This document shows positions 9,320 through 55,276 of a stretch of DNA of 64,000 nt, piece after piece. Below the pieces are notes generated by a model. It was not told the DNA's origin. It made no database searches and saw only the letters and a program-made list of their open reading frames with translations. This DNA comes from Rhododendron vialii (lineage: Eukaryota; Streptophyta; Magnoliopsida; Ericales; Ericaceae), in contig NC_080564.1 in assembly GCF_030253575.1 (NCBI RefSeq), positions 8,290,501-8,354,500 on the forward strand, in the 5' to 3' direction. The position numbers and the translations under genes were made by a program. The stretch's first letter is position 1; each line of letters starts with the position of its first letter.

Positions 9320-12300
9320 TTAGCCTTCAGTGCTCACATCCATCTTTCGTGTCTGAGAATGGAACATATCAGCTATATCTGTTGATGTGCTACATTCCTC
9401 CGGCTTTCTATCCGATACAGAACGCACGAATCTAGGAAATCTGATGGAGATGCCACGGGAAGGATGAACTAAGCCGATGGCAGCCTTGTGAACTGGCGAT
9501 ACCGTGAAGTCTGCGCCTCTAATCTCCCACACAAGCTCCGGAGAAAACCACATATCAGGCACTTCCGCAGTTTGATAGTATAGAGGCTTTCTGGATAACA
9601 TTTTGTCCCCAGAGAAAAACTCTTTCATCTGCACAAGAGTCATTTTCAAAAACTTCCTGTCATTCTGCAATTTAAATATCTAGCAACATAGGTATAGATC
9701 AAGAACGGCCACAAAGATCATACAAAAGCTCGTACAAAAGAATCGCACATGCCACAAAAATCTGATTTACCTCTACATAGAAAGAATCTGAGAAGCCAGA
9801 CATGACACGACAAACGCTTTGAAATTCCTGAGTATCAGGCTCATAGCAAGCCACGAGGAAAGGACTATACCTGAAACAAGTAACACCACAAACTGTAAAG
9901 TTAGTCCAGGGAAGATGCTTAAAAATGTCAAAGTGTATCCAAGAAGAGCATCTGCAAACCAAATAATATAGTTTCTTTTTTGCTCTGGCATCATAATAGG
10001 TTCAATGGCCTGATATTCATCTATATGGAACCTTTTCAGTTTGCAGCATGGACAACCAGAGTTACAATCATATCCTCATATGTGATGATTTTATTTCAGC
10101 AAAGAGTCAAATTCCAACTTCCTCTCTTCAAATGTGCTCCCAAAACAAGGATGAAAGAACAAGAATTACTTCATTTTCTGAGAAAAATTTCCAGAAAGAT
10201 GGTAACCGGACAAGCAAAAGATGATAAGAATGATGGAGACTTGTCGTTACCATCCTGCTTTTCTTCCATTCCCATGCCAAGCACCAATTGGTACTAAATC
10301 AAGGGAATCGCCAAGTCCTTCTACATAATCACGCTTGACCTGCAAGTACATGCAAATAGTAATGCAAACCATATTTCGTATATGAATGCTGCAATTTATT
10401 CCACTTGCTATTTCATCCAGATACCTTTAACCAAGAATCAGAACGCTTTGATGGAGAATATCCGGCGTCAACATCCAGAGACTTGACCATTATCCCTTCA
10501 CACGAGGAGCTCAGTGCATCATCCAGAAAAGACTTCATCTTCATTTGTGTGGATTCACTGCTCAAACTGGCATCATCCGCTTCTATCTAAAAGAGTGGCA
10601 AATTTTAGAAACTAACACCACTAAGATCATCATGACAACAATCACCATCAGCACTTACCGTTGTTTCCTTTGCATATTCAAAATAACCCAACTTCTCGCT
10701 ACCAAACAGATCTTTAAAATCTGAGATTTTAAATCACAAAAAGAAATACTTTAGTTTAGAAGATGCATCACATTCTAAGTACAAAGGTTTTGCCGCCGCA
10801 AAATAGGAGAATACGTCAAGTTGAGTGACAGGAAGATACATACATTTTCGTCTTTGGCGAAGAGGGAAACTCAACAACCTGCAACAGAGAACTCTTTCAG
10901 GTTTCCTGACAACAATTCTGAACAAACTGTATAAATCCCAAATCTAGATGAAATAAAAGGGCTCAGTTTTCTGAATTCTATACATTTTCAGCCATTAGAC
11001 TTTGATCCAAGGGTCCCTATTAATGTTACAATGAAATGTACATTAACTTTTAATCCAAGGGTCCATATTATTTTTTAAATGTTTTAATGCCTTAGATTAG
11101 TTTTGCTGCACGCCGAAAAGCGATCAGATGGATTGCGCGGTTTAAACTTCCACCACTCGATTGCTGCACTTTCATAATTAAGGGTTGGATCTGACTTCCC
11201 GCTAACTTTCAACTTTTGTAAAGCTGAAAGTGCTCCTTTGCCCAAAGGAGCCTACTCCCTTCTGTAGAATGTGTCACCAGCTAACTCAGACTCCAAGTCA
11301 GAAGGCACAACTGCAAAACGAGGCTGGACCAAATCCATTCCACCCTCTCCTCAACAATGGTTACCGCCGGTTCTTTGGGATTACCCTACTGGGGATCCTC
11401 CTCCTCCTAAGGATCCTCCATTTCCTCAGAATCTGAGTCTATTACTATGACCGGTACAGGTGTGGTATTAGGTGGGGGAGGCGCTGGTCCCTGAGCTTCC
11501 TGCTAGGGCCCTTGGTTTGTAACCCTATCTGCTTCTACGGTTCTACCCTTCCCAGAATTTTCCCCAACCTTCCTCCGAAGTTCAGCATCACCAAAGTTCA
11601 ACATCACCAGTGCTTCTTCGCCAACGCTTCGAATTGGCATCTAGCCAGTAACGGACCACGGCTCTGGTAACTTGGGGACCGTAATTGTGCTCCCTGGTTG
11701 CCCTCTCAATCATCGTATACACCCTATTTTCTGCAATGTCCAGATCCAACGCCTATCCAACTAGGCAAAGCTCTTATATCAGTGTTCTAAAAGGCGGCCG
11801 CCTAGGCCGATTAGTCCCCGCCTAGGCGCTAGGCGGTGGTCCAACACCTAGATTAGACAGCCGACTAGTCGGGCGCCAAGTCCCTGCCTAGGCACTAGGC
11901 GGCCGACTAGTCAGCGCCTAAGCGCCCCTTTTCTGCCCAACTAGCGCCTAGCGATTTTTAGAACATTGCTTATATAGATGTCCCAATTGGTTGTGCTAAA
12001 CAGCCAAAACGCATATAACGATGAACCAGAAGTACAGCTGAGACTAGAACATGTGCATTATAGGTAAGCAAATACTTGAAATATTATAGGTTCCAGGAAA
12101 AGGTTTAAGATGATTACTGCTCTCCATTAGCAAACATGATATCAAAGACAAGCACACAAATGTCCACCTGCACAGACAATATATATCAGATACAGATATT
12201 CCCAGAGAAATGGAAATTGAAGCATTAAGGCAATGATTCTACTCGAAACGTATAAATATTCATGCAAGTAACCAAGAATACAAGGATATATATTCTGCAA

Positions 12301-15300
12301 TTTATATTATTCTTTTTCCTTCTCTAAGACGTGGCATCTTTCAACAGCTGGACTAGTTCTGTTTTCATAGAGTCACCGGCTGGCTCATGATTATCTATTC
12401 TCTTCATCTTCCATTCCAACATACTTTTCAAAGTGTAAAGCCGTTTGCAGAAGAAATCATCAAAAGGGAAAGCTGATCACCCATACAAAAGGTTACACCA
12501 TCCTTACCTATGCCTCTGAAAGGCTGAAACAGAACAGAAAGAAGGGACCTATATCTCAACAGGACAAAAGAATGTGAAGATTGCGCATACCTTCCCTGAA
12601 ACCTATTATGAAGTTTAGGTTTTGCTCTTTCTGGTATGGCTTGGGTAATAACATGAAGAGGTGGCGAGGATTCGGGCCAGTTGGAGAGGAGAGAGAGAGA
12701 ATGAAAGCAAAGGAGGAAAGGCTTGGGCACTTGTGCCGCTATGTCCGTGTGGATGACTTTGTGGGAGTGCAATAAAAGATCTTTTCAAAGTGTGAAGGAG
12801 AGGATTCAGCAGCTTACGAGTCACTTTTTGGGCATATTGCATAGTTGGGTATTGGGAATCTGGGATCTGTCTCGCCTAAGTCTTGATTCTCTTGTGGATA
12901 TTTAGATTTGCTTCCCTTTGTTTATAGCCACTCTTACTGTATATATATCTGGGTATACGTTTCATTTACTTTGCATTTGCCTCTTGATGCTCTACTTTAA
13001 CATAACTATATCATTTCGCAACTTAAATGGCAGGAGCATTAATTAGAACAATTTATGTAAAGGTTTACAAACTCAAGCATTAACTACTGATGCTTCCTTA
13101 ACTGTGCTTTGGAACACTAGACCACAAGGGAAGAAGAAAACCACATTGCTTATCACACCTTTATGCTGTCCACTGTAATCAAGGAATCTTTACTGCCTCT
13201 CTCACGGGAAGATAGTTCTTGGAAGGATAAAATCTTGTGGCCATTCTTCCTATCAACAGCGACTACCTGAGACAAGAAGATTACTCCTATCTATAAATCA
13301 CTGGTAAGTCAATGCAGGGCTTGAAACTAACAATGGAACTCTGAACATTTCATCCAATCTAAGGAATTGTTAGAGCTTGTCCCACATTGGTTAATTATAA
13401 CCTCCAAAACTAGTATATGAGCCTGGACGGCCTCTCCACTCATTGTCCATTGGTTTTGAGTTCGATGCTTTAACATGGTATCAAAGCTAGGCTTTTGAAG
13501 GCTTCTGGACAAGACTTTGTTGTCTTGTCTGTGCCTAACTGCACCTTGTTTCGTTATGATCCCTATGTTACGGATCCTTTATTTATCTCTCCACGAGCAA
13601 GTCAAGGGTTTGAGAGTGCAGGGGTGTGTTAGAGCTTGTCCCATATTGGTTAATTATAACCTCCAAAACTAGTATATAAGCCTGGGCAGCCTCTCCACTC
13701 ATTGCAAATTAGTTTTGGTTGGATACTTTAATAGGAATCAGAAACCCACCACAAAATCATATTACACTTCCCAAAGAAAAGTGATACCTCTGCATCCACT
13801 ATGAAAGTTGCAGCAGCAGGACCACATGATTCCTGGATTATGTTGACTAAATCGGGAAACCTCGCTGTTGTTTCATCCCCGTTTCGTGAAAAGACACGCA
13901 CAGATCCATCAGCCAATCTGTGAATTTGGGCACGCTGGCCATCATATCTCAAAAAAGAAAACATAAAATCTATATCAGAAGCAAATAATGTATGAAAACA
14001 TGCACCATAGAAAAGAAAGGTGAAATGACCAGAATTAGTATGTATCAAAACTTCATGTACCCAGTTTATATGAAACAATGTAGCTGGCAAGCCACACATT
14101 ACAAAAGGCTTAGCCTGTTACCAACGAATCAAGCAAGGGCCATTTAACTAATCAGGTCCTAAAAGGGTCATGACAAAATGACTAAGTCTTAGGGACAAAG
14201 TTAGCAATGCTGAGTAAGTAAATGCAAAGAGCAACCACTAGTATTTTCAGAAGACGCAACAACCACCACGACCCTCAAGGATATCTTAGAATTCCAACTA
14301 ATATGCATAATTTACAGTGAGACAGAATTGGGTCTAAGTAGGCCTCAATGTCTTATTGACATGGAGGTACAAATGAAATTTTTACCAAGAATGTCATCAA
14401 CAACAAATGATATCTGGTTTGGTTTGGTTTGAATGTCATCAACAAATGTTCTTCAAACGGATATACTTGGAGTAACTCTCCCCTAGAAAAGGAAAGCCAA
14501 ATAATGGCTCTTGAAACCCATTGGGTTGTTTTGGACAAGGCACCCCCATTACCATGTGAATTGTGATGCAATGCTTCCATAATTACCTCCATAAGCAAGC
14601 AACCCAGAGACACAGTTAATGTTAAGCTACAGAGAGCTGCCCCGTGCAAAACAGGTGAAAAAAGATTGATCATACTTTGAGATCATTGGAGACAAAAGTC
14701 ATTTCTGTCTAGGATTCTGGCACCTCTTCCAAGTGCCCAGAGCCTACAATCCTTCTCTCTTCGAACCATAAAGTACGAGCCCCCCTTGACCTCCTTAATG
14801 AGGAACTTAACTATAGGCGGCACTGTTCTTACTTTAAGATAACGGTTGGTATCCAAACTGACTATACAAGGACTTTTATTCACTTATCCACACTTGGTAC
14901 AGGTTTGACTTCCCCAAGAAAGTGGAAGGCTATCACAGCCTCTCTCAAGTGTAGTCCTGTGTGCTTCTCGTGAACCTTGCAATAAAATTAAGCAGTCATG
15001 GAAGCACCAAAATATCGTTTTGACATATGAATGACACTAAATGGCCTCCAACTGTCCAAACAAGTGTATTGGAAGTAGAAGAAAGGGCTATATTGCACAC
15101 GAGGAGGGGGACTAAAAAAGATAAGGGACTTACTTATATTCACATGTAAATGCTTTATTCTGAAAGTTCTTCAACACTTGTGGAATTCCATTGGTAATTC
15201 TACCCAAAGAACAATATTAACAAGTATTCCAAGATGAGAACAATAGAAATGGTAATAAAACAAGTAATCAACAGTACTAATAGCACCCAATGAGAAACAT

Positions 15301-19200: not shown

Positions 19201-22200
19201 AATAGGGTTCCAGCAGTTTACTGCCAATCATTCCTCCTATGACTTATTGTTCATGATATTAGAAGTTAGAACAACATATTTTCACCAACCCAATATAAAC
19301 GGATTTGAAACATTGTCAGAGACCATAACCATATCTTTCAGTCCATACCTTATCTTCCAGAGCACAGAAAATACACCTTGGATTGAGAGAGGTGGAGGAG
19401 GGGCCAGAAGTGACTGTGTTTGTCGGCAGAGTTGAGCAACATCACCTTTACATAGCATACAGTGGTCGCTAACATAAGGAACCGAAATTTGTGGGGAAAC
19501 CATACACAAAACAACAAGAAAACAATAACTTAATAAGGCATTCCTTCCTACCAAGATCGCCTAAGCTGTCATATAGTTCCTTAATTTTAGATCTCTTGGT
19601 CCCACAGGCCTCTTCCAGTGCTGCTACAACAATACTTCCACCGATATTTAGTTCCTGCAACATTGTTACAACCCTATTCAATCTTATCAGGTGTGCAAAT
19701 CCCACAGTAAAAAGGGGAAAGGTAAGAAAGTCATAAGAAGAACCATGCACACTACACCCAAACCACAGAAGACATCATTGAGAAACGGGGCCAAAACATT
19801 AGTACGTCGACAACCAGAACTCCACTGCCACCAACAAATCATACAAAGTTGACTGATCGTGTTTAGACAAAAAGATATTTAAGAGAGAGAGATAGACAGA
19901 GTAATTGTGAACTCTTTCCCACTAGGTGATCAAAAGAACAGCGGAATGGAAGACATATGTAGCAAACGGAAACACTGTTACAGTGTTACCTTATTTTCAT
20001 GGTCAGGAGCAATCTTATTTGTACACAAGTATACAGCAGGGAGCACATCTTCTGGAGACAAGGCCAATAAGCTGCATGACAAGACAACTGTAAGTGAATG
20101 ACACTTACCAATAACTTTAACTGGTGATGCTAACTCTTCCCTCTACAAATGGGAAGCAAAAGAATATTAAGTACGAGCAACAAACCTTCTGAACATATTG
20201 CATAACATTGATGTAGCCTTTATCTTTCCCTTTTCGCCCTCAACTAGGTCAAAAGTCCGCGCAAGATGTATATAAGGCGCAGGCTTTCCATGCCTCCAGC
20301 ATGCTGCACATATATCCCCCCAAGTAAAAAGATCATTCCAATTGGAGAATACAATAAACCATGGACAAATAATTTCAAGGAGGCAATCATCTTGGTATTC
20401 TACTGGCAAGGTGAGGAATTTCAGAAACTTATTTAGCTTCAAATGAACAAACACCAACCATGCTCTACAGGAGAATATTGTTCTGCTGGTAGCGATACAG
20501 GAGTCGTTGCAGCATTCTCGGGTGACAGAATTGGCACAGACAAATTTTCCATGTTTTCCAATGCCTCTGAATCTGATGGCACTTTTTCCATGTGAGAAGA
20601 GCAATTTGAATGACTGGGTCCATCCCTTACCGATCTTCCAACGTCAACCAACCTATTTTCATTCTCGCAAAGGTAAGGCTCAGGAGGATTACTGTAGTAC
20701 TTGTCCAGTGCCATATTTATGTCCCCCTTTGTCTCCTCGAGTATATCTGCAGCGTAACTTCTTAATGATTCACTCCCATGTATAATCTGAATAAACTGGT
20801 CTAACTCCTCTTTGTAGGACTTAATAGGATCACTTGGCATCATATTTTTGTCATTTGGGCTTTCCTCCAACAAAGTTTCAACCCCAGAACATTGAGAAAC
20901 ACAAGGTCCACGTTTAGTAAAGAAACTGGTAATAGTGGATTGCTTTTGAGTAGTAGATTCCAAACTTGAATTGCTTCTTGCTTTCTTGTTAGGCTTATTA
21001 TCCACATTTCTCCGCTTCTTTCCAGTAGAATTACTGCTCTTTGTTAAATTCCTTGTGCTGGGTGATTTTAATTTTTTATCCAGTGAAGCAACCACATTTC
21101 CAAGAGGGTTGTTAACAAAACATGGTTTAGCAGGTGATACAGATTTATTAAGTGGGCTAGTCTGCAACGTACAATCAGCTGAGGCACAAGGAATGATCTG
21201 GTTGTGAAACTCAAGTTCCCGTTCATAGAAATTAGAAACTGCATCAACAATATTTCCACCAGAGCTACTAAGCAGATCAATCATCTGAAGTTCAGTGACC
21301 CAAGTAGGCAAACAGTCACGAAGTTGTTGAATGAGTTCCTCTTTTTCACTGTCACTTAACAGAGCTATATCCTGTGCAACAGGTTCCCGACCAAAAGGCA
21401 AGGAATCTAAAACAATTCTCTGATCATTTTCATCCTGGGGCTTAAATTGAGGTGATTGGACCTCTTTGAACTGGTCCATTTTGTTCTGGCCAATGGTGCT
21501 ATCCTTCTCAACCATGCCATCTGTCCCCTGAGTACAACGATGAAAACCCATCAAGAATTCTTGTTTGATGGCCATTTCATCAACCAGCCCAGCAAAATGT
21601 TTCCGCATAGAATCAGCATGTTTGCTGTCAAGTTTCTCAACATCCGCGCCTACTGTTGGAATAACACGTTTTGGTTTCAAAAACCTCACATATTCTCTGA
21701 GCTCGTCATAATTTGAATGCTCACTATAAGGTACGAGATGTATCTCAAATTCATCCTTAGTCCTTACTGCAAACTTGTTGCGCTTTACTTCATAGGTCCA
21801 CCCCGTCGGAACAAAACCCACAACTTTAGAGTACCCTCTCTCATTCATAATCTCCTTCACCTTCACAAAATTAGGCCGAAAATAAGGCCAAGTCTCACCC
21901 AACACATTCCACCCCACAACATGTACATCACTTTCTGATTCTTCCTCGGTAAATGCATCATCTTTTCTCAACCCCAAAACACGCAAAATAGCTAGTTTCC
22001 TACTATCCACAAGTATCTTCCGCTTACACCTACGTGCAATTTCAAGCAAAATCCGCTCCTTTCCAATAACATAAGTAGCAACAAGAAACAAAACAGACTT
22101 CACAGAACCCTCATTTTCGACCCCAAATCTCTCTATCATGCTAACTATATACTCAATCGACTCTTCTTGGGATGGAAACAGGAACTTCGGATCACAATAC

Positions 22201-22778
22201 GTGGTATCCAAGAAAACAGCGTCACAACCAACAAATTCAGTCAAACCGAGCTCTAACTTCATCGAATCACAATAACGAAAATCACCCGTATGCACATACG
22301 TCTCACTCTTGCCACCACCACTACCGGGGATTCGGAACAGAAACTGAACCGCGCCGGGACAGTGATTGGCATCGATCAACGACGCCTCACACCCATCAAT
22401 CAAAACAGGCTCAGACAAAGACAATGGAACCACAAACAAAGATGATATTTTGAGTACCTCGATGAGGAGGCGGGCGGTGGTGTGGGAGCAAAAGATGATG
22501 CCTTTGGACCAGTTAGCGTTGAGGCCGGCGTAGTGGTCGGAGTGGAAGTGGGAGAGGAAGTACGAGACGGAGTGGTCGCCGGAGGAGCGGAAGCCGTCGA
22601 CGATGAACCGGGTTCTGGGGATGAGCTTTGATTGGGGGAAGTCGGACGGGAGGGGGGGGAGAGGGGAGTGCGTGGAGAGGAGAGAGAAGGAGAGGGGTGG
22701 GGATTGTAGGGAGAGAGTAGTGTGAGAGGTGAGGAAGAGGGTGGAGGAGTCTAGGGTTACGGTTTGGGAGGTGGACAT
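9320..22778 (-). CDS. LIG6: DNA ligase 6 (beta-CASP nuclease domain fused to ATP-dependent DNA ligase)
   Basis: Nineteen exons in transcript order: 22778-20459, 20303-20186, 20071-19990, 19654-19552, 19445-19349, 17542-17440, 16047-15928, 15776-15729, 15404-15307, 15199-15134, 13947-13788, 13266-13159, 12167-12118, 10878-10844, 10720-10659, 10586-10425, 10339-10251, 9870-9771, 9628-9320. They total 4230 nt, 1409 residues, close to Arabidopsis LIG6 (about 1396). Residues 60-400 form an SNM1/Pso2-like metallo-beta-lactamase/beta-CASP domain: HxHxDH at 77-82, NHCPGA (H139), HTGD (163-166), SEH (H354). A Lys/Arg-rich NLS-like patch lies at about 586-601. The ligase half has the adenylation motif EYKYDG, with Lys1052 split across exons 10/11, EGIMVK at 1220-1225 and SWLKVKRDY at about 1241-1249. 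The family acts in plant DNA repair and seed longevity. Alternative upstream ATGs exist (22824-22826; in-frame to 22955). I chose 22776-22778 because it lies nearest the conserved region. Confidence 0.96.
9771..10339 (-). other. LIG6 C-terminal OB-fold exons
   Basis: Exons 17 and 18 of LIG6 encode the segment after the nucleotidyl-transfer core (VKRDY...GLGDSLDLVPIGAW, then the YSPFLVACY and EFQSVCRVMSGFSD segments), the expected ligase OB-fold region. The junction codon TG|G (Trp) is split between 10251 and 9870. The final exon (9320-9628) carries the FSPELVWEIRGAD and GISIRFPRF motifs of the ligase C-terminus. Confidence 0.85.
10879..12117. other. LIG6 intron 13, with gag-like retroelement debris
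   Basis: The intron holds an inserted stretch (about 11220-11760) whose minus strand reads a Pro-rich then DSDSEEMED acidic segment, like the tail of a retroelement gag/capsid-type protein, broken by stops. A hAT-type MITE sits just beside it (11780-11968). The remainder (10980-11200) shows a short repeated motif, CCAAGGGTCC. No exon is hidden here: flanking exon phases already join. Confidence 0.35.
11780..11968. mobile_element. hAT-type MITE in LIG6 intron, 189 bp
   Basis: Terminal inverted repeats CAGTGTTCTAAAA (left) and CAATGTTCTAAAA (right, reverse complement) differ at one base. The sequence CTTATAT flanks both sides (11773-11779 and 11969-11975), seven bases of the eight expected for hAT insertions. 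The interior is a dense set of GCCTAGGCG-type palindromes. There is no coding capacity. It lies in an intron and should be spliced out. Confidence 0.8.
13368..13733 (+). mobile_element. TRIM retroelement (two 107/108-bp LTRs) in LIG6 intron 11
   Basis: Two direct repeats beginning TGTTAGAGCTTGTCCCA lie at 13368-13475 and 13627-13733. The first ends in CA. Immediately after it comes TGGTATCAAAGCT (13476), a good match to the primer-binding site for initiator tRNA-Met used by many plant LTR elements. A purine-rich run precedes the second LTR. GGAAT flanks the element on both sides (13363-13367 and 13734-13738), a 5-bp target duplication. The interior of about 150 bp has no coding sequence. This is a complete terminal-repeat retrotransposon in miniature, oriented opposite to LIG6. 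Confidence 0.9.
13948..15133. other. LIG6 intron 10
   Basis: A 1.2-kb intron between the exon ending with the first two bases of the catalytic Lys codon and the exon supplying its last base. Short open frames inside (14353-14673, 14683-14883) have no recognisable product. No clear transposon ends were found. Confidence 0.5.
16048..17439. other. LIG6 intron 6
   Basis: An intron of about 1.4 kb holding a pure G30 tract and, near 16985-17100, a segment reading CACACAAGAGACCAAGATTTATGAGGTTCACCC-like, a phrase that recurs in many plant retroelement-derived repeats. No exon-quality coding sequence was seen. Confidence 0.45.
16260..16289. repeat. Poly-G run of 30 bases
   Basis: Thirty consecutive G on the plus strand, inside a LIG6 intron, so C on the LIG6 transcript. 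Plant genomes rarely hold such long uninterrupted G runs. It can form G-quadruplex structures. Its length may be unreliable in the assembly. Confidence 0.9.
17543..19348. other. LIG6 intron 5
   Basis: A 1.8-kb intron, the largest in the gene. Several short open frames (17698-17895, 18468-18734) lack any family signature. No transposon ends or RNA gene recognised. Confidence 0.5.
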
Positions 22779-23038
22779 GGATGGCTGTTGTTGTTGACGG
22801 ATGGCGGAGGAAAGTGATGAGGTCATTTGACCGGAGCGGTCTGAAGGCCGCCCTGTTATCCCCTTCTCCACTGATTTGTAATTATTCTTTTTTATACGTG
22901 AAAAGAGAAATACGAAACGGATCTTCAGCAAACGCACGTGTGGCGAGTCCACCACGCTCCTCTTTCATCTTTGTCTCACCACTCGCTCACTTTATTAGCC
23001 CTAGGGTTTCTCTCTCTCCCCGTCTACAACCCTCGAAC
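22779..23038. promoter_or_regulatory. Bidirectional promoter between LIG6 and AR401-like gene
   Basis: Only 260 bases separate the two start codons (LIG6 leftward from 22778, methyltransferase rightward from 23039). The interval must contain both leaders and the shared promoter. It holds an ACGTG core (22935-22940) and a pyrimidine-rich stretch with CCCTAGGGTTTCTCTCTC (22999-23016). The AAACCCTA/AGGGTTT element is a telo-box-like motif common in promoters of plant housekeeping and replication-linked genes. Confidence 0.6.
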
Positions 23039-32640: not shown

Positions 32641-35247
32641 AAAAAATCTCAATCTCTCTCTCTCTCCTGGAGCTGAAGCCAACGCTAGAGATTTCTTCTG
32701 TCCGTGCAAATCGAATCAGCGCTCTCTTCTCTTCTCAAGGTACCGTATCTAAACGAAGCGATCTCTTTACTTTCTCACAGTTCGATCTCTAATCGACCAG
32801 TCGTCTGCTTTTCGATTTTATCACTGATTTCCGATCGCTCAATCTTTGTATCAGATCGGACTCATCGCAGCCTCCACTGCTAGGTAAAACCGCGATTTTT
32901 TGAACAATTTTAGTTGCATCGGATAAGAAGCCATTGTCTGGTAGTGATTTGATTTGTCTAATCGAGCCTTGCGTAGTGAAACGTGTACGTAGCCTCTAGT
33001 ATTTGGATGAAATCAGTGAAGTAATATGTAGACTTTGTTATTTCTATATGTATATGTCTAGTTGAAATATGTAGACTTTATTATTTCTATATGTATATGT
33101 CTAGTTGATCCACGTCTTGCATAGTTCAAAATATCCGTATCGGTCACCATAACGGTATCGGTTGCGATGTCGTGGTTCCAGGGCGTATCAGTCGTAGTGT
33201 AACTGTATTGGTGACCAGAGGGGTTAGAATTTCACAACACTTACTGATACCACCGCTAAGTAGCGGCTCCTATCGGCTGTAATTTTGACCGTATCGGCCG
33301 TAACGGACCAATACCATGGTTACGTGTATTTGCTGATGCCGTTACGTATCTGCCGATACTGTTCCTGTTCCTTATCACCGATCCATATGCGATTTTTCTT
33401 CGCACTGCAATATCGGTTGTATCGGCCGATACCGATTTTGGTGATGTCAAAATGAATCATCACTTGGGTACCGTAAGCTGTTCTTTTGAATGATGTGGAA
33501 ATGAGCATTATATGTCGCTGGTTTTGTGTGTAAGATTAAGATGCTCTGGAGTTGTGTAGTTTTTTTATATGTGCCTGTTTCCTAGGTGTATCTGTTTATT
33601 GAGTACCGGACATGTGTTTTTTCTTCTTTTCATTAGTAAGTTTGATGGGACAACTTGGGTCCCTCGTTGTGTCGAGAATCGCGATAGAATTCTAGAGATG
33701 AAATGAACAATTTTCCAATTCGTTGCAAACTGCTTTGTGACTATGGAGACTTGAATGCCAGCCCGAGATTATTGACGGCTATGTTATGGGAAAATTTGCC
33801 GATTCTGTAATTTTATTTTCATCTTGCATCGTATAGCAATAAGTTTAGTGAAGGAACAGATCTTTTCCAGTCTATTTTATATTCTTTGACTGCAGTTATT
33901 GGACTGACATTTTGATTTTGTGCCGTTGTGTCAACACGTCAGGGAAGAACTTTTTTTTCCCCCTCTAATGATTTTACGTGAAAATTACCCGTGTACAATT
34001 TAAGAAGTTATTATTGAACTAAAAAATGATGTAATAATGGTAGGATAATCACAAGTTTTTACAGAAATAGTTGTGTTGTGCCAGAGTGGACCTTAGATTC
34101 TCTTTTAATTCTTGTAAGGGCAAAAGCTATTAATAATCATCATTTGGCCTGTCACGGGGGCCCCTCACTGAAGTTTTAGTTCAGTAGAAGAAACTCAAAA
34201 TGCTTGACTCCAAATGATATTGTCATACAGTTAATAGGTTCTAGTCTTCTAGCTCGCTGGTGCTTCTTCGAAGAATGAAGGATTGGCTTGATGCATTTGG
34301 AAAACCCTTAACTCATCCTGATGGATGGTTATGATTACAACCGTTGGATACTTGGGGTTGAATAGAATTTAGGGTTAAAAAGAATCATGTAGAAGTGGCA
34401 TACCTGGAAAGATTTATTTTCTGCTTGTGAAAAGAGAATAAGTTTTGTTTTGGGAGCTACATCCACGTTGGTCAAGACTAGTTTGCAGGCTTGTGGTCAT
34501 TTTCTGTAGGTGGTTATTCTGTTGATATCTATTTTACTTGACTGTATGCTTCATTTGGAGTTCTGTTTTCCTCTATTTTTATCCTTCACTTTTGTGCAAG
34601 GAAAGAATCATTGACCTTTCCTTGTTAGTTGTCCATCTTGTAAAGGTACAAGGTATCCTATGTTGCGTCTTTTCATATGCATTTCCAAACAACGCGGCGC
34701 ATTCTTGGTGTTTCTTGCTTTTGCTTGAACTACATTCCTGAGTTTGCTACAATTTAAGGTTGTGAAGGGTATTAATTTGAGTTTTCTTTATTTACTCACT
34801 AAATATGAAACATTAAGATGCTATTAAATGTTGATCATTTTTTAACCCTTTCAGTTTTGCTTCCTAAATCTTTAACCCTGTTGATTCAGGATTACTCCCT
34901 GGTTCATCTGTCTGTGCTCTGCAAATTTTCGAAGTGTGTCAACTTCTAGGTATCTTTTATGTCCGAGCAGGCCGTTTTGTTTCAAGGATCAATTGGGTTA
35001 CTTGGAGAATACTGCCCTAAGTCGAGGAAAAAGAACGAACCCTTATCGGACCGAATTGACTGCATGTATCACACGTCCTGGCAGGAATTTCGTTATTGCG
35101 ATTGGGTGCAACTTTCCTTTAGTAAAGAGGAGGAAATTGATTTGTCTGCCCAAGACTCCTTAAAGGACTTCTACATATTGAAATCCAGCATTTCCTCACT
35201 GTGACATCTATCCTTTTGTTCAAGGAACCTCTCCAACCAAACCAAAC
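32640..35247 (+). promoter_or_regulatory. eIF5 5' leader with a 5'UTR intron
   Basis: A (CT)n-rich start (about 32650-32668) is followed by a probable first non-coding exon ending CTCAAG at 32739, with a GT donor at 32740. A strong acceptor (pyrimidine tract then TTGATTCAG) ends at 34889. A leader intron of about 2.1 kb is therefore likely, as in other plant eIF5 genes, where the CDS itself is intronless. The intron holds a 43-bp tandem duplication (33023-33108) and a foldback-like region rich in TATCGGCCG motifs (33125-33460). Inference from splice motifs only. Confidence 0.5.
34959..35204 (+). CDS. 81-codon upstream ORF in the eIF5 leader
   Basis: An ATG-started frame in the second leader exon ends 43 bases before the eIF5 start codon. 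Its start context (TTTTATGTC: T at -3, T at +4) is poor. The peptide has mixed, protein-like composition with a Cys/Trp/Tyr-rich middle (DCMYHTSWQEFRYCDWVQL). Known biology: eIF5 lowers start-site stringency and its own mRNAs in several eukaryotes carry inhibitory upstream ORFs with poor contexts, giving feedback. From memory, plant eIF5 genes are among those with conserved peptide upstream ORFs; I could not check the alignment. Most likely a regulatory uORF. Confidence 0.6.
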   Translation: MSEQAVLFQGSIGLLGEYCPKSRKKNEPLSDRIDCMYHTSWQEFRYCDWVQLSFSKEEEIDLSAQDSLKDFYILKSSISSL

Positions 35248-36588
35248 ATGGCTTTACAAAACATAGGTGCCAGCAATAGTGATGATGCCTTCTACAGGTA
35301 TAAGATGCCTAAGATGATTACCAAGATTGAGGGCCGAGGAAATGGTATTAAGACAAACATTGTCAACATGGTTGATATTGCAAAGGCTTTGGCACGGCCT
35401 CCTTCTTACACAACAAAGTATTTTGGTAATGAGCTGGGGGCACAATCTAAATTTGATGAGAAAACTGGAGTTGCACTTGTTAATGGTGGACATGACACTG
35501 TTAAACTTGCTGGTCTGCTGGAGAACTTTATTAAGAAGTATGTGCAGTGTTATGGCTGTGGCAATCCCGAAACGGAAGTCCTAATTACAAAAACTCAGAT
35601 GGTACAACTGAAGTGTGCAGCATGTGGTTTTGTTTCCGATGTGGATATGAGGGACAAGCTCACAACCTTCATATTAAAGAATCCACCTGAACCAAAAAAG
35701 GGATCGAAAGAGAAGAAGGCCATGAGGAGGGCTGAGAAAGAGCGACTGAAGGAAGGTGAGGCAGCTGATGAAGAGATGAAGAAGCTGAAGAAAGAGGTGA
35801 AGAAAAAGGGGCCTTCCACTTCTAAGGATGGGCCTGCAAAAGCCAGCTCCAACAAAAAGAAAGCCAGTGGTTCAGATGAGGAACGTACTCCACCCACTGT
35901 AAACCATGTTGATGAGAAAGAAGAGGATGGTGACGATGACGACGACGATGTCCAGTGGCAAACTGACACATCAGCTGAGGCGGCCCGCCAGCGCATCCAA
36001 GAGCAACTGAGTGCTGCTACAGCAGAAATGGTTATGCTTTCCACTAATGAGACCAATGGAGCAAGCCAGAGTCCAAAAACTGCGTCTCCGCCACCTGGGG
36101 TGAATCCCAAAGTTGAGAATGGAAACTCAAGCCATGAAAAGCTAGTGGAAGAGGTGAAAGCAAAACTGCAGAAGGGAGTTACTGCAAACCAACTCCAGTC
36201 TATCTTGGCATCATTTTCCGGATCTCCTCAGGATGTAATGACTGCTTTGTTTGAGGCACTCTTTGATGGGGTTGAGAAAGGGTTTGCAAAGGAGGTGGCC
36301 AAGAAGAAAGGATATTTGGCTGCTGCTGTTGCTGGGGATGAGGGATCACAGTTGCTTCTACTTCGAGCGATTGAGGCTTTTGTTTTGAAGCCTAGCGTAC
36401 CTGCTTTGAAGGAAGTGGCTGTATTTCTTAAGGCACTTTACGATGCTGATGTGGTGGTGGAGGAGTACGTTATGCAGTGGTATCAGGAAGGTCTGGCAGG
36501 TGGCAACAAGGACTCGCAGATGTGGAAGAATGTGAGGCCCTTTATTGAGTGGCTCCAGAGCGCAGAGTCTGAAACAGAGGAGGAATGA
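35248..36588 (+). CDS. EIF5: Translation initiation factor eIF5
   Basis: One uninterrupted 446-residue frame. It is the GTPase-activating protein for eIF2 in the 43S pre-initiation complex and also binds eIF2-beta and eIF3 through its C-terminus. The N-terminal eIF2-beta/eIF5 domain starts FYRYKMPK, with the GAP arginine finger at Arg17 (equivalent to yeast Arg15), GRGNGIKT (29-36) and a C4 zinc ribbon with Cys101, Cys104, Cys123 and Cys126. A charged Lys-rich and acidic linker follows (about 145-240, including a run of Asp). The C-terminal W2/HEAT domain (about 290-446) ends with the aromatic/acidic box QWYQEG...IEWLQ and ESETEEE. Length is typical for plants. Intronless CDS, complete, no defects seen. 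Confidence 0.97.
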   Translation: MALQNIGASNSDDAFYRYKMPKMITKIEGRGNGIKTNIVNMVDIAKALARPPSYTTKYFGNELGAQSKFDEKTGVALVNGGHDTVKLAGLLENFIKKYVQCYGCGNPETEVLITKTQMVQLKCAACGFVSDVDMRDKLTTFILKNPPEPKKGSKEKKAMRRAEKERLKEGEAADEEMKKLKKEVKKKGPSTSKDGPAKASSNKKKASGSDEERTPPTVNHVDEKEEDGDDDDDDVQWQTDTSAEAARQRIQEQLSAATAEMVMLSTNETNGASQSPKTASPPPGVNPKVENGNSSHEKLVEEVKAKLQKGVTANQLQSILASFSGSPQDVMTALFEALFDGVEKGFAKEVAKKKGYLAAAVAGDEGSQLLLLRAIEAFVLKPSVPALKEVAVFLKALYDADVVVEEYVMQWYQEGLAGGNKDSQMWKNVRPFIEWLQSAESETEEE

Positions 36589-44451: not shown

Positions 44452-45240
44452 TATAAAAAACTACTTCTAGCCGCAAAATATTACTTCTGGCCGCGATGAA
44501 TAATTTTGCCCGCAAAGAATTATATTTGGCCGCGAAGAATTACTCTTGGCCGCAATGAATTACTCTTGGCCGAGAATTACTTTTAGCCACATTGAATTGC
44601 ACTTGGCCGCATCGAATTTCACTTAGCTGTATTGAATTACTTTTGGTTACATCAAATTGCACTTGGCCACATCGAACTACACTTGGCCGCATCGAATTGC
44701 ACTTGGCCGCATTGAATTGCTTTTGGCCACATCACATCGAATTGCAATTTGATGTGGCCAAAAGCAATTCGATGCGGTCAAGAGTATTTCGTAGCGGCCA
44801 AGTGCAATTCGATATGGCCAAGTGCAATTCGATGAGGCCAAGAGTAATTCGATACGGCCAAGTGCAATTCGATGAGGTCTAGAGCAATTTGATGTGGCCA
44901 AGTGCAATTCGATGCAGCCAATAGTAATTTTGTGCGCCAAGAGTAATTCTCCGCCGCCACGAGTAATTTTTTTTCGGCTAGGAGTAATTCTTTACGGCAA
45001 ATAGTAATCCTTTACGGCAAAGAGTAATTCTTCGCGGCCAGGAGTAAAATTTTGCGGTCAGGAGTAAATCTTTGCGGCCAATAGTAATTCTTCAAGGCCA
45101 GGAGTAATTTTTCACGATCACGGGTAATTCTTCGTGCCAGGAGTAATTTTTTGCGGTCAAGAGTAAAATTTTTACGACCATAAGTAATTCTTTGCGGCCA
45201 GGAGTAATTATTTGTGTCCAATAGTAATTCTTCACACCAA
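44452..45240. repeat. Inverted array of 20-bp units
   Basis: Left of about 44744, units of the form TTGCACTTGGCCGCATCGAA repeat with an exact 20-base period for many copies (clearest from 44597 to 44740). Right of it the same unit repeats in reverse complement (GGCCAAGTGCAATTCGATGC) to about 45235, diverging outward. The junction (about 44730-44760) is a near-perfect palindrome. About 39 units in all. Because 20 is not a multiple of 3, three units make a 60-base coding period, which explains the apparently long open frames here; I do not regard them as genes. Confidence 0.88.
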
Positions 45241-49029: not shown

Positions 49030-49153
49030 ATGTGCGCCAGGGCGCAACCATCCCGCACCAGGGCGCACCATCGCGCGCCCGACTCACTCCATCGCTCGAT
49101 TGTGCGCCAGGGCGCACCATCGCGCGACAGACTCACTCTGTCGCGCGACGGTC
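49030..49153. repeat. GC-rich tandem repeats in the solo LTR, cluster 1
   Basis: Two to three degenerate units with GCGCCAGGGCGCACCATCGC and a (T/C)CGCGCGAC end. Related to cluster 2. Confidence 0.8.
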
Positions 49154-49866
49154 AAACCTGCCACCAACTTTTCCTGAGGAGGACAGTTGGCCACCAATGC
49201 AACTCTCAGCAAGCCTCGTGGACTAGCTGAACTCCTCTCCTGGCACCAACCAGATTCACCCCCTCTCCCTATTTATACCCCCATGGGTCTTTCATTCAAA
49301 GGGTTCCAAAAATTGAAAGGCTAAGCACAAGCTCTAGTGCTTTTCTTCCAAACTCACAATCCTCCATTTTCACACTTCAAACCATCCAAGAACAAAGCTT
49401 GTTCTTTGCTTCTACCACTCAAACTCCTCAATCAAGCCTTCAAACATCAAAGTTCAAACACCTTTCAAACTCAAAACCGAAGGTATAGCTTACCTTTGTT
49501 CTGTTTTCTGTTCTGATCCCTGAGGGGGGCTGGCAGGGCCAAGGCTGGTAATCAATACCAGTTCTGGTCCTAAAGCTGGCAAGGTTTCAAAAACCGTCAT
49601 GGTAGGAACCAGCGCGTGATGGTCCCACTCTCTCGCGCGACACTCCGGTGCTGCATGCGATGGACCGCGTGGGGATTGGTGTCCTACTGTTTCATGCTTT
49701 ATTTTGTATATAGATCACTGTTAAGCATGTTAAAAACCAGTTTACTGCTTTCCTTTGTTAGAAATTGCTAGCCGTAGTTCAATTTGCATGTCTTCTGTTT
49801 TGGAGTACCCTTGGGATCATTCTGGACCTGTCCCAGAACCCAGAAATGTGTAAACCAAATACTGGT

Positions 49867-50019
49867 CCGCGCCAGGGCGCACCATCGCGCGCCTGACTGG
49901 CTCCATCGCGCGACAGTGCGCCAGGGCGCACCATCGCGCGCCAGACTGGCTCCCTCGCGCGACAGTGTGCTAGGGCGCATCCTCGCGCGCCAGACTGGCT
50001 CCGTCGCGCGATAGTATGC
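49867..50019. repeat. GC-rich tandem repeats in the solo LTR, cluster 2 (49-bp period)
   Basis: Three units starting at about 49867, 49916 and 49965, each holding GCCAGGGCGCACCATCGCGC, GACTGGCTCC and TCGCGCGACAGT, period 49 bases. CpG-dense and likely a methylation target. Open frames across it are periodic and not genes. Confidence 0.88.
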
Positions 50020-51084
50020 CTCTGACCAGTGAGTGGCCTTGCACGGGTAGCTTAGTTTTAGGTCATTATTTTGTCCCCACACTATTTATGGGGTGTTTTA
50101 TTAATTTGTAGGGCTTTACAACCTTTAAACTGTATATTGTGCTGCTTATAACTGCGTGGTTTGTCCTGGGTGTGCACTGGTCCTTCCAGAGCCCAGAGGG
50201 TTTGAGAATAAGAGCTATGGGTTTGAGCTCACCGGCGCGCGCGTGTCTTGGGGTTGTGCGCGCAGGAGTAAACAGCATGCAGTGACTCGTTCAGTGCATG
50301 CTGGTTTCTTCCTACGCACGTCACTCCAAAACAGGGGCCTCCCAGTTTGTTTAAACTCCCACAACAATCTGTTCTCATCCTATACTAACTGCTCATCCAT
50401 GCTATCATTCACATCCTGCAAACATGTTACAGTTTTAATCCCCGATTAACTGTTCTCCCGCCCTAATTGGCTAAAAAATTGATTAATCAAACAGAATCGC
50501 AAACAAATATTTTCGCAAATGCCTAAGTAGAGACCGATCTCCAGATTGGGCGAGAGGGGTGCCATAAAACCCTTCCCCTCTCGTAACCTGGCTCCCGAAC
50601 CCAGATATGGTTATGACGGACTGGTTCCTTAACTTTTTCAAAATCAATCAGCGCGGCAAGTGCTTCGAAATATGGTTCCTTGGGTGTCGGACCTTTAAAC
50701 CCGAGTGGCGACTCTGTATTTTGCAAGCGCTTGCTTCCCCGCTCGCGCTCCCTCGATCTGGGCCCTTGCATTTTGGAATCCGGAAATTCCAAGGGCACGC
50801 TGCCCACACAGATGCTAACTTGAAATGATATTTAAATATTCTATTCTTTGAAGCAAGTATTGCCCTTCCTCATTTACTCTTCTGGTGTTTGTCATGCTTT
50901 GTTGTGTAGCATGAGATTTTTTTCATGGATGGACTCAGGAGATGTGTCAAGAAGGGTGACCAACATAAACGTGTTGTGATGGCATGATTTTAATCCACAT
51001 ACAGGAATTTTTGATTTTCCCGTCTTTTTATTACAAATGGTGTAACTTATCTGCAACAACTATTTGACCAACTTACATTTTTAG

Positions 51085-54000
51085 GTACCAAGTGACGAAG
51101 ATTCTGTGGCGGAAAAGAGAAAGGGGGAAGAGCTGGTTGTGCCTGAAGGGAATAAGAAAAAGAAGAAGCAAGTTAACACACCTCGACCTGCTTGCTCTTG
51201 GGTGCATTTTAGGTAACTACTGGTGTCTTAAATGCTAAAACGGGCATGTAGACATAATACCTTTTGAGATATTGAGGTACTCAGTCCTCTTCACATTGCA
51301 ATGTTGTAGCCGTGAGTTCATCAAAGAGTATAGCGCTTCCCATCCTGAATCTTCAGGCCTGAAAGCTGTAAGGGCTCTTGAATTTGTTTAAATCATTTTG
51401 TTCTTTTCTTTGGAATGAATAACGGTTAATGTGCCCCTTTATGCATTTCAGGCCACAAAGGCTGCCTCTGATGCATGGAAGTCAATGAGTGTTGAGGAAA
51501 AAGCTAAATATACTAGGCGTGCCCGTGAAGTGTGGGATAACTACTTGAGTACTGCTCCTGCCCGTGTTTCAAAACCAAGAAGACAGGTAAGATATATTTT
51601 CAATGACTTTATGATACAAAAAACAGAACAGTAAATTGCAAGGATGAAAATGATACCACGATACTACCCTAGAGTTATGGTTGTAGCCTTGTAGGCATAC
51701 CCTAATACCATAGTCAAACCCTAAAAAGACCAAAGAAATAAATACTAAAACTCGATGTTCACATTTGATGATAATTGTATACTCTTACAAGTTACAACTC
51801 TTAAAACTTATGTCATGCAGGCCAAACTAATCACAAGGTGCTCTCCTGGTCGTTTATTGAATGTATTGCTACGCTTGACCCCTGACCAAAAAGTTTCTGT
51901 GAGAAGCATGGGATTTGGCAGCCTTCTTGGTCTCAAATGTCGAACCCTGCGGCGCAGCTTGTGTCTTTGGCTGTTAGAGAGGTTCAATACTGCACGAAGT
52001 AGCATGAATATTTGTGGTGTGCGCATTCCTTTATCACCACAGGATGTGGAACTTGTGCTGGGTTTAGCGGCAAATGGGAAGGATGTGGTAAACTCAGGTC
52101 CTGATGACCTAATTGCGGAATTGCGTCAGAGTTACAACGCTACGAATCATGGGATCTCCCTTCGCCTATTAGAGGATAGATTGGCAGCTCCAGAAGCAGG
52201 AGATGATTTTAAGAGGTCATTTGTATTGTATGCGTTGGGCACTCTTTTGTGCCCAACAGCAAGGCTGGATGTTAGCCCTTCATTCCTCCATTTCTTGACA
52301 AATATGGATGTTATCCATCAGTACAACTGGGGAAAATTCTTGCTTGACCGTCTAGTTCGGGAGGTATCACGTTTTCGTCAAGGGAAGCAACGTGCTGTTG
52401 GTGGTTGCCTTTTATTTCTACAAGTAAAGGAGAACATCACTTCTTTTAAATTTACTTGATCGATGGCCTAACTCCTTATTTGGCTTTGTTGTTTTTTGTT
52501 TATTTCTTGTTTATTGTGAACTTCCTTAGGAAGTTAGGTGTGGGTCAAATTTATGTCACAATCCAATTCGTCTCGTCTTGCAAAAATTTCCTCTCGTCTA
52601 GATGAATGGCATTATAATTATTTCTTGACTAGAAGCTAAAAGAATTGAAGTAAATCCAACCAAGACATTGTGAGAAAGTTAGTCCATATGCAGTCTTCTG
52701 AAGTAATATTTGAAGCTTGCATGGGTATTTTTTGCAGCTTTTCTATTATGAGAGAATCTCTGTTGGAGGACCTCGCGAATTGGTCCCTACTGTTGTTCCT
52801 TGCTTGTCCTCATGGGGTGAGGAAGAAATTAGTGAGAGGGAGAAGCGAGAAAAGGAGCTAGGTGGCTATGGGCGTGGTGAGGTATGTTAAAAGTTAAACT
52901 TATAAAATCTGAAAGTTTATTATGTACGTAGATTTGTCAAGTAGGGGCTAACTGCAGGTGATTTACAAGGAGAGGTCCCAAAGTATGGAGTTAGTAGTGG
53001 CAGATGGAGCTCAACAAGACGGAACACCAGTGGGAGAAGTGGGAACCATAGTCGAGCACGATCTTGGCTTTGCTGATGATGTTGCCCCGGTAATTATGTT
53101 TTTTTCCCCCTAATCAGCACCACAGATATGATACACTGTATATAAGAGAAAGTACATTAGAGTACACAAGGGGGCAAGAAGTCTGCCAAGAAAAGAAAAG
53201 AAAAAAGTAGGGTGTGATTTTGAAATTTCATTATGTACTGTCCATTTTGTAGGTGATTTTGGATCAGTAATCTGTATTTTGTCCAACACTGGGCAACTGT
53301 CACTCCATATAGGAGTGTTTGTGTGTGAAAGGAGTTATACTTTCTGTTACCCATCGACCATCGTTGGTTGTTAATGATGATGCAAAGCTCGCAATATTTG
53401 GAGTTTTCCTGTCATAGTTGCTTTTTGCTCATTTGAGTGACGATATTAAACAACATTCAAACTATATGCCATCAAGGAACCTAAGGCTAGTGAGAGTTAC
53501 CATGGGTAAGTGAGCGCCTTCCATTGTTTCGTAGTAGTTTGCACCCATGCACATTTCGATCCTTGTTTTTCCTGTACACGGTAAACATCAATTAGTTGAT
53601 CACCTTGCGTGTTATGTGTTTATTTGGTGTCCTATTTTCCAGTGATTTTGTTCACTCAAAAGTACGAAAACAAGTTCAAGTTTTGAAACAAGTTCCGAGT
53701 GCATTGTTTGTTCACTTTGATATATACATCATGGATAGACCAATGCAGTAGATTGGCGGGAGGTTGAAATTGGTTCGATGATGTCACATTTTTGTGTGGG
53801 ACGCAAGAAACCTATGTGTATGATTGGCTTATAGTCCCGGTCCTATCCAGTCGAAAGTCTTTTTCACGTTTTTAGAAATCTACAGCATGGATAGTTTGTT
53901 TATTGGTTGGATTTAGTTTTTTGTTTCTTCAGAATCTCAATGAATGCGTCATTTAGGGGAGTTATGAATTTGTGATGACACTTTGACAGCGATTAAGCTA

Positions 54001-55276
54001 GTATTCACCTGTACCTCTCCATGTTTGGTAATAAAGAAGTTAATTTTTATTTTTCATACCAAATCTCAAGTATTGACCGACTGCTTTTCTTTGATTTATC
54101 ATGTTACAATTCTCTTCCTTTTATTTTCGTGATTTGGGGGATACGGTTTCACTTACAGTTGATACTGTGTAGGCAAACGAGGATAAAGTAAACGGAGAAA
54201 CTACAACGGAGAAGGTAATCATCAGTCTTTATATTCTCTGAATGATTTTAATGTTGGATTTCCCTTTCATGTTTTGCACTATCCCATTGGCAATTAGAGA
54301 GAAACGAAAGGAAAGTTTTCCTTCGAAGACACCATCAGTTTTTTAGTCTTTGTCAGTTGTCAGACCCCTATCAGACATGATAGTTTTGTGGTTATGCTAT
54401 ATCCTCTTAATATTAACCATCAAATACTATAATACTTTCCACTGAAATGAAATTTTAAGCCTCGTACCTTCTAAACATTAGGAGCTATTGGAGATCAGGT
54501 ATCCTAGTCTGCATTTTCCTCAGAAATTTGTCTGTATTTGTGATTTCTGTAGTTTGCATGCTGAAATACTTCAGTTTTGCACTTCTCTCTCTCTCAGGTA
54601 TGGCTTTGAAGTTACATAGAACATATCTATCAACTAGTTTGATTTCTTTTCATAGGAAAATATTCAAGTTGATCTTGAGAAAGGGAACATAATCTGTGTG
54701 GATATGGGGGTGGTGGTTGAACCAGTCAGGGGACCATGCCGAAACACAGAGTATGGTTGCCCAGAAGAATCTGTCACTCACACAGGCAAAAATGACCACG
54801 AAGAAACATGCATCTATGCTCCATGTTCATGCCCCCTCCAGAACTGCGCCTTCATTGGCTCATCCGAACAGTTAAGCCTACACTTCAGCAGTAAACACCA
54901 GGACTCCGGAAGGCGTTTCCAATACAACTGCCCTCTTCCATTGTCCTTAAACGACGACGACCAGTTCCTTGTTCTTCAAGCAGAGGACGATGGTCTTCTT
55001 TTTCTCCTCAACAAGGGGGTTGAAACAATCGGGCATACCTTAATGGTAAATCGTATCGGGCCAAGTTCTTCGAAGGAGGGTTTCTTTTATGACCTTGTTT
55101 CAGAAAAAGGAACCAGCTCTCTTAGATTGAAATCGTGCGTGCAAAGTTTCCCTGGGCTTGTTATAGGGTTACCGCCCGTAGATTTTCTTCTGATTCCGTT
55201 TGGTTATGCTAGTTCATCAGGACAGCTGAGTTTGGAGGTTTGTATTTGGAATTCGACGGAACTTGGTGCTGATTGA
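51085..55276 (+). CDS. Chimeric protein: HMG box + MULE/Ulp1-type domain + SINA zinc finger (5' end unresolved)
   Basis: Eight exons: 51085-51212, 51310-51367, 51452-51586, 51821-52423, 52738-52881, 52958-53089, 54173-54214, 54656-55276, giving 620 residues counted from 51085; phases match throughout. Residues 24-28 are KKKKK (nuclear signal). An HMG-box-like domain lies at about 32-100 (PRP...W...F, then HPE, W-K-S-M-S-x-E-E-K-A-x-Y). A domain at about 108-330 (RCSPGRLLNVL, GFGSLLGL, CLWLLERF, DVELVLGL, FLQLFYYERI) is of the type N-terminal to Ulp1-like proteins carried by plant MULEs. The last exon is a SIAH-type double finger (GPCRNTEYGC, HEETC, C-P-L-Q-N-C, H-x4-H) plus the SINA beta-sandwich; no RING precedes it. 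The first exon, with the start codon, was not found; it may lie beyond the solo LTR. The last exon could also be a separate gene. Confidence 0.72.
53090..54172. other. Long intron or possible gene boundary in the chimeric gene
   Basis: A 1.1-kb gap between the exon ending DDVAP and the small 14-codon exon. It holds no exon-quality frame. If the HMG and SINA parts are separate transcripts, the boundary is here. Confidence 0.4.

Follow-up and report, generated by a model that had tools for sequence, protein, structure and literature searches.

The window analysed here, a stretch of 64,000 nucleotides of Rhododendron vialii DNA (C8:8290501-8354500, in a genome of 13 contigs and 532.6 Mb that was searched as a whole), carries on its forward strand eight exons which encode, in one open frame, an HMG box, a plant mobile domain (PMD) and a SIAH-type double zinc finger of the SINA family from which the RING is absent. 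With a probability just short of even, these exons can be read as a single-copy descendant of an HMG-PMD gene family that lies directly 5' of a RING-less SINA-like copy and is spliced into it. A first-pass annotation had described a domesticated chimera in which DNA binding and a transposon-derived domain replaced the RING. The order of the domains, the open frame and the absence of the RING stand, and the joining of the parts in one transcript is possible rather than proven, but the idea of a replacement is better put as an HMG-PMD transposon-family gene adjoining, and maybe spliced into, a RING-less SINA-like copy.

Gene Model and Domains

The eight exons with matching phases proposed in the first-pass annotation are borne out by their splice sites, their phases and the frame that they form (Table 1). 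An AG acceptor precedes each of the eight exons and a GT donor follows the first seven, all seven introns being GT-AG, and the outgoing phases of exons 1 to 7 are 2, 0, 0, 0, 0, 0, and 0. Stops in the spliced frame, which had been named as the sign of a wrong model, were looked for and none occurs in the 620 codons of the join. The nuclear-type lysine run noted earlier is present within exon 1 (KKKKK, 51154-51168). Since this exon has no ATG and an in-frame TAG stands directly 5' of it, the model lacks an exon at its 5' end; among the start-exon candidates (ATG...GT), the top scores fall in a GC-rich repeat, and the one at 50925 is a weak candidate only. Exon 7 could be left out without disturbing the frame, its 42 nt being a multiple of three. 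At positions 49053-50015, just 5' of the gene, there are GC-rich direct repeats that resemble one another at 80-87%, and an LTR (long terminal repeat)-type element is a guess as to their nature.

In the joined protein, the predicted HMG-box-like domain is found by Pfam over its curated cut-off (HMG_box, PF00505, residues 33-98; E-value 5.9e-9, 36.7 bits, cut-off 25.4) and was also matched by sequence to HMGB1 structures. The PMD (PF10536) extends over residues 181-341 (4.9e-12, 46.1 bits, cut-off 34.9), exon 4 alone reaching 34.3 bits with this model, slightly below the cut-off. Sina_ZnF is matched by the joined protein (4.7e-11, 43.4 bits, cut-off 32) and by exon 8 alone (3.6e-11, over the cut-off). 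The zinc ligands of the window align with those of the SINA-like relatives, the ligand pattern being that of SIAH, and the profile of an alignment of SINA-like rows including the window (alignment A2) matches SIAH1 structures. While the SIAH-type double zinc finger claimed earlier is upheld, the SINA beta-sandwich claimed along with it is not confirmed: no Pfam model of that domain matches C-terminal to the zinc fingers, where the only Pfam signal is a weak DUF4729 (0.067 and 0.018) overlapping the second finger. A SINA beta-sandwich or dimer domain in exon 8 is putative, suggested by 41-46% identity to six SINA-like copies. AlphaFold models were too low in confidence for fold inference in the case of the SINA exon (pLDDT 41.6) and too poor for fold comparison in that of the PMD exon (pLDDT 57.4, pTM 0.62). 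In agreement with the RING-less architecture first proposed, no RING model matches the joined protein at E ≤ 1 in Pfam; an NCBIfam scan gave no match.

Constraint was assessed by counting, according to codon position, the differences of the window at sites where its relatives agree. For the SINA exon, compared with five relatives (L023, a copy with an internal stop, being omitted), the differences at positions 1, 2 and 3 are 31/105, 26/126, and 36/73 (position 2 vs. position 3, p = 3.5e-5, Fisher), and for the PMD exon, compared with three subfamilies, they are 33/84, 27/117, and 24/45 (p = 3e-4). This third-position excess of differences in both halves suggests that each has been under protein-level constraint for much of its history.

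Table 1. Features of the HMG-PMD-SINA locus, in window coordinates.
Feature	Position	Strand	Remarks
Exon 1	51085..51212	+	Acidic/basic lead, KKKKK, start of HMG box; phase 0 in, 2 out; no ATG
Exon 2	51310..51367	+	Middle of HMG box; best codon-scoring frame is the spliced frame
Exon 3	51452..51586	+	C-terminal part of HMG box, basic tail; no other good match in genome
Exon 4	51821..52423	+	PMD core; 201 open codons
Exon 5	52738..52881	+	End of PMD
Exon 6	52958..53089	+	Linker; without splicing, frame stops at 53113
TATA-like TATATAAG	53139..53146	+	Pattern only; possible promoter of a separate SINA gene
Exon 7 (candidate)	54173..54214	+	42 nt, purine-rich
Exon 8	54656..55276	+	RING-less SINA-like end; TGA at 55274-55276
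First in-frame ATG of exon 8	54704..54706	+	Possible start of a standalone RING-less protein
SIAH-type double zinc finger	54713..54901	+	Sina_ZnF match, start set at the first aligned ligand; C-C-H-C and C-C-H-H ligands align with relatives
SINA-like C-terminal region	54902..55252	+	Putative substrate-binding/dimer domain

The HMG-PMD Family

HMG followed by PMD is the standing order of a multicopy, mobile gene family in this genome. With the Pfam HMG profile, five exons are found at E ≤ 0.001. Two of them, C7:27301164 and C10:28272562, are immediately followed on the same strand by a PMD exon, which carries stops in the C10 copy. A small HMG hidden Markov model made from four rows (the window, the C7 copy, the C10 copy and one ordinary HMG gene) picks up an HMG-like exon immediately ahead of the PMD in 14 of 21 additional copies, at E ≤ 0.0052 as calculated for this small set; the other seven comprise two with weak HMG signals (0.057 and 0.15) and five without a credible HMG. 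As five near-identical pairs occur within the 21 copies, the independent cases are fewer than 21. In eight pieces hand-picked from HMG-PMD loci, Pfam HMG models were matched at E ≤ 1 in all eight and over the curated cut-off in five. For the introns that interrupt the HMG box and set it apart from the PMD, the C1 copy allows a reading with phases 2, 0, 0, 0 like those of the window gene; this comparison was made by eye on one copy, whose first donor is ambiguous. With this order common across the family, the HMG box was not newly recruited at the window gene, and the local chimera that had been supposed to bring HMG and PMD together is not borne out by the 14 further copies and the two found first.

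Mobility is apparent from the C7 copy: nine relatives, two of which contain a stop, are 81-90% identical to it over the whole or nearly the whole PMD exon, and many others match it more weakly. The loci L058 (C1, 36.45 Mb) and L059 (C6, 34.85 Mb) are 99.4% identical over all 10 kb compared, a large recent duplication carrying HMG-PMD, in which the frame after the PMD codes for a long Glu/Asp run. No obvious transposase was seen near two HMG-PMD copies (10 kb, open reading frames of at least 95 aa, by eye and without a family scan). At L047 (C7, 27.30 Mb), a frame resembling a gypsy-type reverse transcriptase, recognised by eye, is found in antisense orientation immediately 5' of the HMG-PMD gene, by chance nesting or as part of the same element.

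Some PMD copies are also accompanied by Ulp1 (PF02902), of which the genome holds 17 matches at E ≤ 0.001, none of them in the window. In a comparison of these matches with 48 of 147 PMD places, an Ulp1 exon was found 1.8-1.9 kb 3' of the PMD on the same strand at four places, two of which form a near-identical pair; a fifth Ulp1 match near a PMD was set aside as it overlaps its PMD match. The SINA exon of the window lies 2.2 kb from the PMD exon, about at the Ulp1 position of those relatives. The middle domain had been described as of the kind borne by mobile elements and placed before Ulp1-like proteins, which is correct insofar as it is a PMD of a mobile family, the Ulp1 itself being found at the four other places.

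Like the family copies at C7:27300398, C1:36455116 and C4:32729270, the window has HMG exons and then a PMD exon, directly adjacent and, in the by-eye comparison with the C1 copy, with the same phases. Unlike them, it has no similar copies and no detected Ulp1, and a SINA-like exon follows downstream: its PMD exon is at most 40% identical to any other PMD scored, and for its HMG exons the genome offers no second good match. Between 44 and 58 kb of the window, the gene is not flanked by inverted repeats of at least 30 nt, and none of the 150 MULE matches that were scored, out of 1102 candidates in the genome, falls in the window. MULEs do not all possess terminal inverted repeats (TIRs). A dissimilar, single and open copy in a region that also bears the eIF5-like, DNA ligase and DRMBL frames described below looks host-resident, and the window gene may have been domesticated.

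The SINA-Like End and the Missing RING

In sequence, the SINA end groups with SINA-like genes that possess a RING. Over the zinc fingers and the C-terminal region, exon 8 is 41-46% identical to six plant SINA-like copies, namely C10:9342959 and the five members of a tandem array on the other strand of C8 (L023-L027, C8:8374637-8401124), 29-55 kb from the window gene. Near all six, the RING is split over two exons, with 'CP.CF..L.IPVFQ' or nearly so upstream and 'C.NGH.ACSSCC' or nearly so opening the next exon, although in L023 the RING is damaged and a TAA interrupts the frame, whereas the window shows no RING: neither motif searches nor tblastn revealed a credible RING exon there, the best tblastn match (E-value 0.056) lying away from the gene. 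Sina_RING is matched in eight of the nine rows of alignment A2, the window being the row without it. This alignment left out five of the 14 Sina_ZnF loci (L001, L005, L006, L007, and L023); by eye, a RING piece is present in the open frame of L001, L005, and L006 and not in that of L007, so that the window is not alone in lacking the RING. A genome search with the Sina_RING profile was too insensitive, finding three places and missing the SINA-like copies. Within the 110 nt upstream of 54695, a RING remnant looked suggestive by eye when compared with the RING exons of the six relatives and was not significant: depending on the relative, its score was reached by 11 to 128 of 300 control stretches and by 15 to 96 of 300 shuffles, and since these score as high, no remnant is claimed.

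One Gene or Two

The chances that exon 6 is fused to exon 8 in one transcript appear about even. Exon 7 has the top codon score and the second lowest T content of 79 candidate cassettes in the gap between these exons, and none of 431 null cassettes has so little T; exon 7 resembles an internal coding exon and, being devoid of an ATG, would if coding need a preceding coding exon. The frame of exon 8 opens exactly at the splice acceptor, 16 codons ahead of the ATG at 54704, and no RING-bearing first exon of its own was found in the window for the SINA part. These observations speak against two adjacent genes, a possibility nevertheless to be taken seriously at somewhat less than an even chance, in which a diverged HMG-PMD gene would end at about 53113, or just past exon 7, and an independent SINA-like gene without a RING would start from the ATG at 54704 and code for a small substrate-binding or competitor protein. 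Two genes are favored by the commonness of RING-less SINA genes in plants, 1519 (72 + 1447) of 4856 in 97 species according to the available part of the source (Table 4, PMC10734943), and by the fact that phases fit by chance in one of three cases. A number of further points weigh against a single spliced gene of HMG-PMD descent. Unless exon 6 is spliced, a stop is met at 53113; unspliced exon 7 also soon meets a stop and could thus end the HMG-PMD gene; the TATA-like box at 53139 is the only pattern hit between 53091 and 54704; and the ATG at 54704 has a G at -3 and +4, which is a fair context. Introns 6 and 7 (1,083 and 441 nt) are longer than introns 1-5 (76-314 nt). The codon score of exon 7 is reached by 16 of the 431 null cassettes, and the positive in-frame score of the 16 codons preceding the ATG by 18 of 118 null stretches; the codon model is small, with exons 4 and 8 forming part of its training set and the gap included in its background. 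When the PMD exon is compared with four subfamilies, the excess at third positions is weaker (19/58, 20/103, and 11/25; p = 0.017), and such tests cannot tell whether selection continued once the RING had been lost or the parts joined. Lastly, HMG and Ulp1 at one locus were seen only for the near-identical L019 and L020, the two of the four Ulp1 places that were examined for HMG, and their HMG piece is below the Pfam cut-off.

Decay of both parts, with a degenerating transposon fragment next to a degenerating SINA duplicate and no functional product from either, would agree with the lack of a convincing start exon, the absence of both Ulp1 and RING, the in-frame stop already present in the tandem SINA-like L023 and the GC-rich direct repeats just 5' of the gene. 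It is nonetheless improbable, given that 620 codons are free of stops though the nearest relatives are only 38-46% identical, that the zinc ligands are kept and that differences accumulate at third positions in both halves. Most improbable is the capture of a SINA fragment by an HMG-PMD transposon (transduplication), the whole being a mobile element: plant transposons do take up gene pieces, Ulp1 included, according to the accessible text of PMC13317346 and PMC2528002, but the window holds a single copy, to which the closest other PMD is 40% and the closest other SINA exon 46% identical and whose HMG exons have no good counterpart elsewhere in the genome, flanking inverted repeats of at least 30 nt are missing within 44-58 kb, and the distance of 29-55 kb between the SINA piece and its tandem relatives is that expected of a local duplicate.

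Other Features of the Window

An unbroken eIF5-like frame with eIF-5_eIF-2B and W2 domains is present at 35182-36585 on the plus strand. On the minus strand, exons for a DNA ligase C-terminal domain (9323-9679), a DNA ligase middle domain (13731-14117) and a DRMBL (DNA repair metallo-beta-lactamase) domain (20442-22964) stand in a row, and this row at 9-23 kb is presumably plant DNA ligase 6. At 44507-45060 there is a dense cluster of nested inverted repeats in which TTGGCCGCAT-type units recur.

Relation to Known Systems

PMDs carried by transposons are on record (PMC5418596, available text), and Ulp1-carrying transposon genes have been described in the accessible portions of two papers, namely Kaonashi/KIU of non-TIR MULEs and CACTA-ULP of grapevine (PMC13317346, PMC2528002). 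The four PMD copies with Ulp1 3' in the present genome resemble KIU and CACTA-ULP, whereas the window lacks Ulp1 and an HMG box is unmentioned for either in those portions. In Arabidopsis, PMD proteins regulate transposon silencing (PMC5418596, PMC7156037), and fusions of PMDs to protease, kinase and phosphatase domains have been published (PMC7156037), as far as the text at hand goes; MAIN and MAIL1-3 are host-resident PMD proteins, with no HMG or SINA partner mentioned there. On the SINA side, vertebrate SIAH3 is a RING-less family member proposed to act as an inhibitor via its dimer domain (PMC5547486). The available text gives it a single zinc finger and mentions neither HMG nor PMD, whereas the window aligns with both fingers. 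Among the open-licence papers listed, no publication naming HMG with PMD was found, the one co-mention containing 'hmg' once, in a DOI, and none was found for HMG, PMD and SINA together.

Possible Function and Significance

Should the fused protein be made, its HMG box and lysine run could bring it to chromatin, and its PMD could serve as a protein-contact module, as in MAIN and MAIL1. The zinc-finger and C-terminal module of SINA, which would sit about where Ulp1 does in some relatives, may bind SINA substrates or pair with RING-bearing SINA-like ligases, five of which are coded 29-55 kb away, so that the fused protein would be an adaptor, or a competitor or decoy, with no ligase action on its own. 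A more far-reaching version, to be regarded as unlikely, is that of a domesticated HMG-PMD protein in which the Ulp1 protease end (SUMO/ubiquitin-type) was swapped for a RING-less SINA substrate-binding module, so that the protein, bound to chromatin, would serve SINA-like ubiquitin ligases as an adaptor or decoy.

If this swap were true, a transposon protein would have been turned from removing ubiquitin-family marks to steering them. An HMG box linked to a PMD would add a DNA-contact module, and a SINA end would bring a protein of transposon origin into ubiquitin signalling. On firmer ground stands the regular HMG-PMD order of mobile genes in this genome, along with the Ulp1 of some PMD copies, and this order could help to explain how PMD proteins find chromatin.

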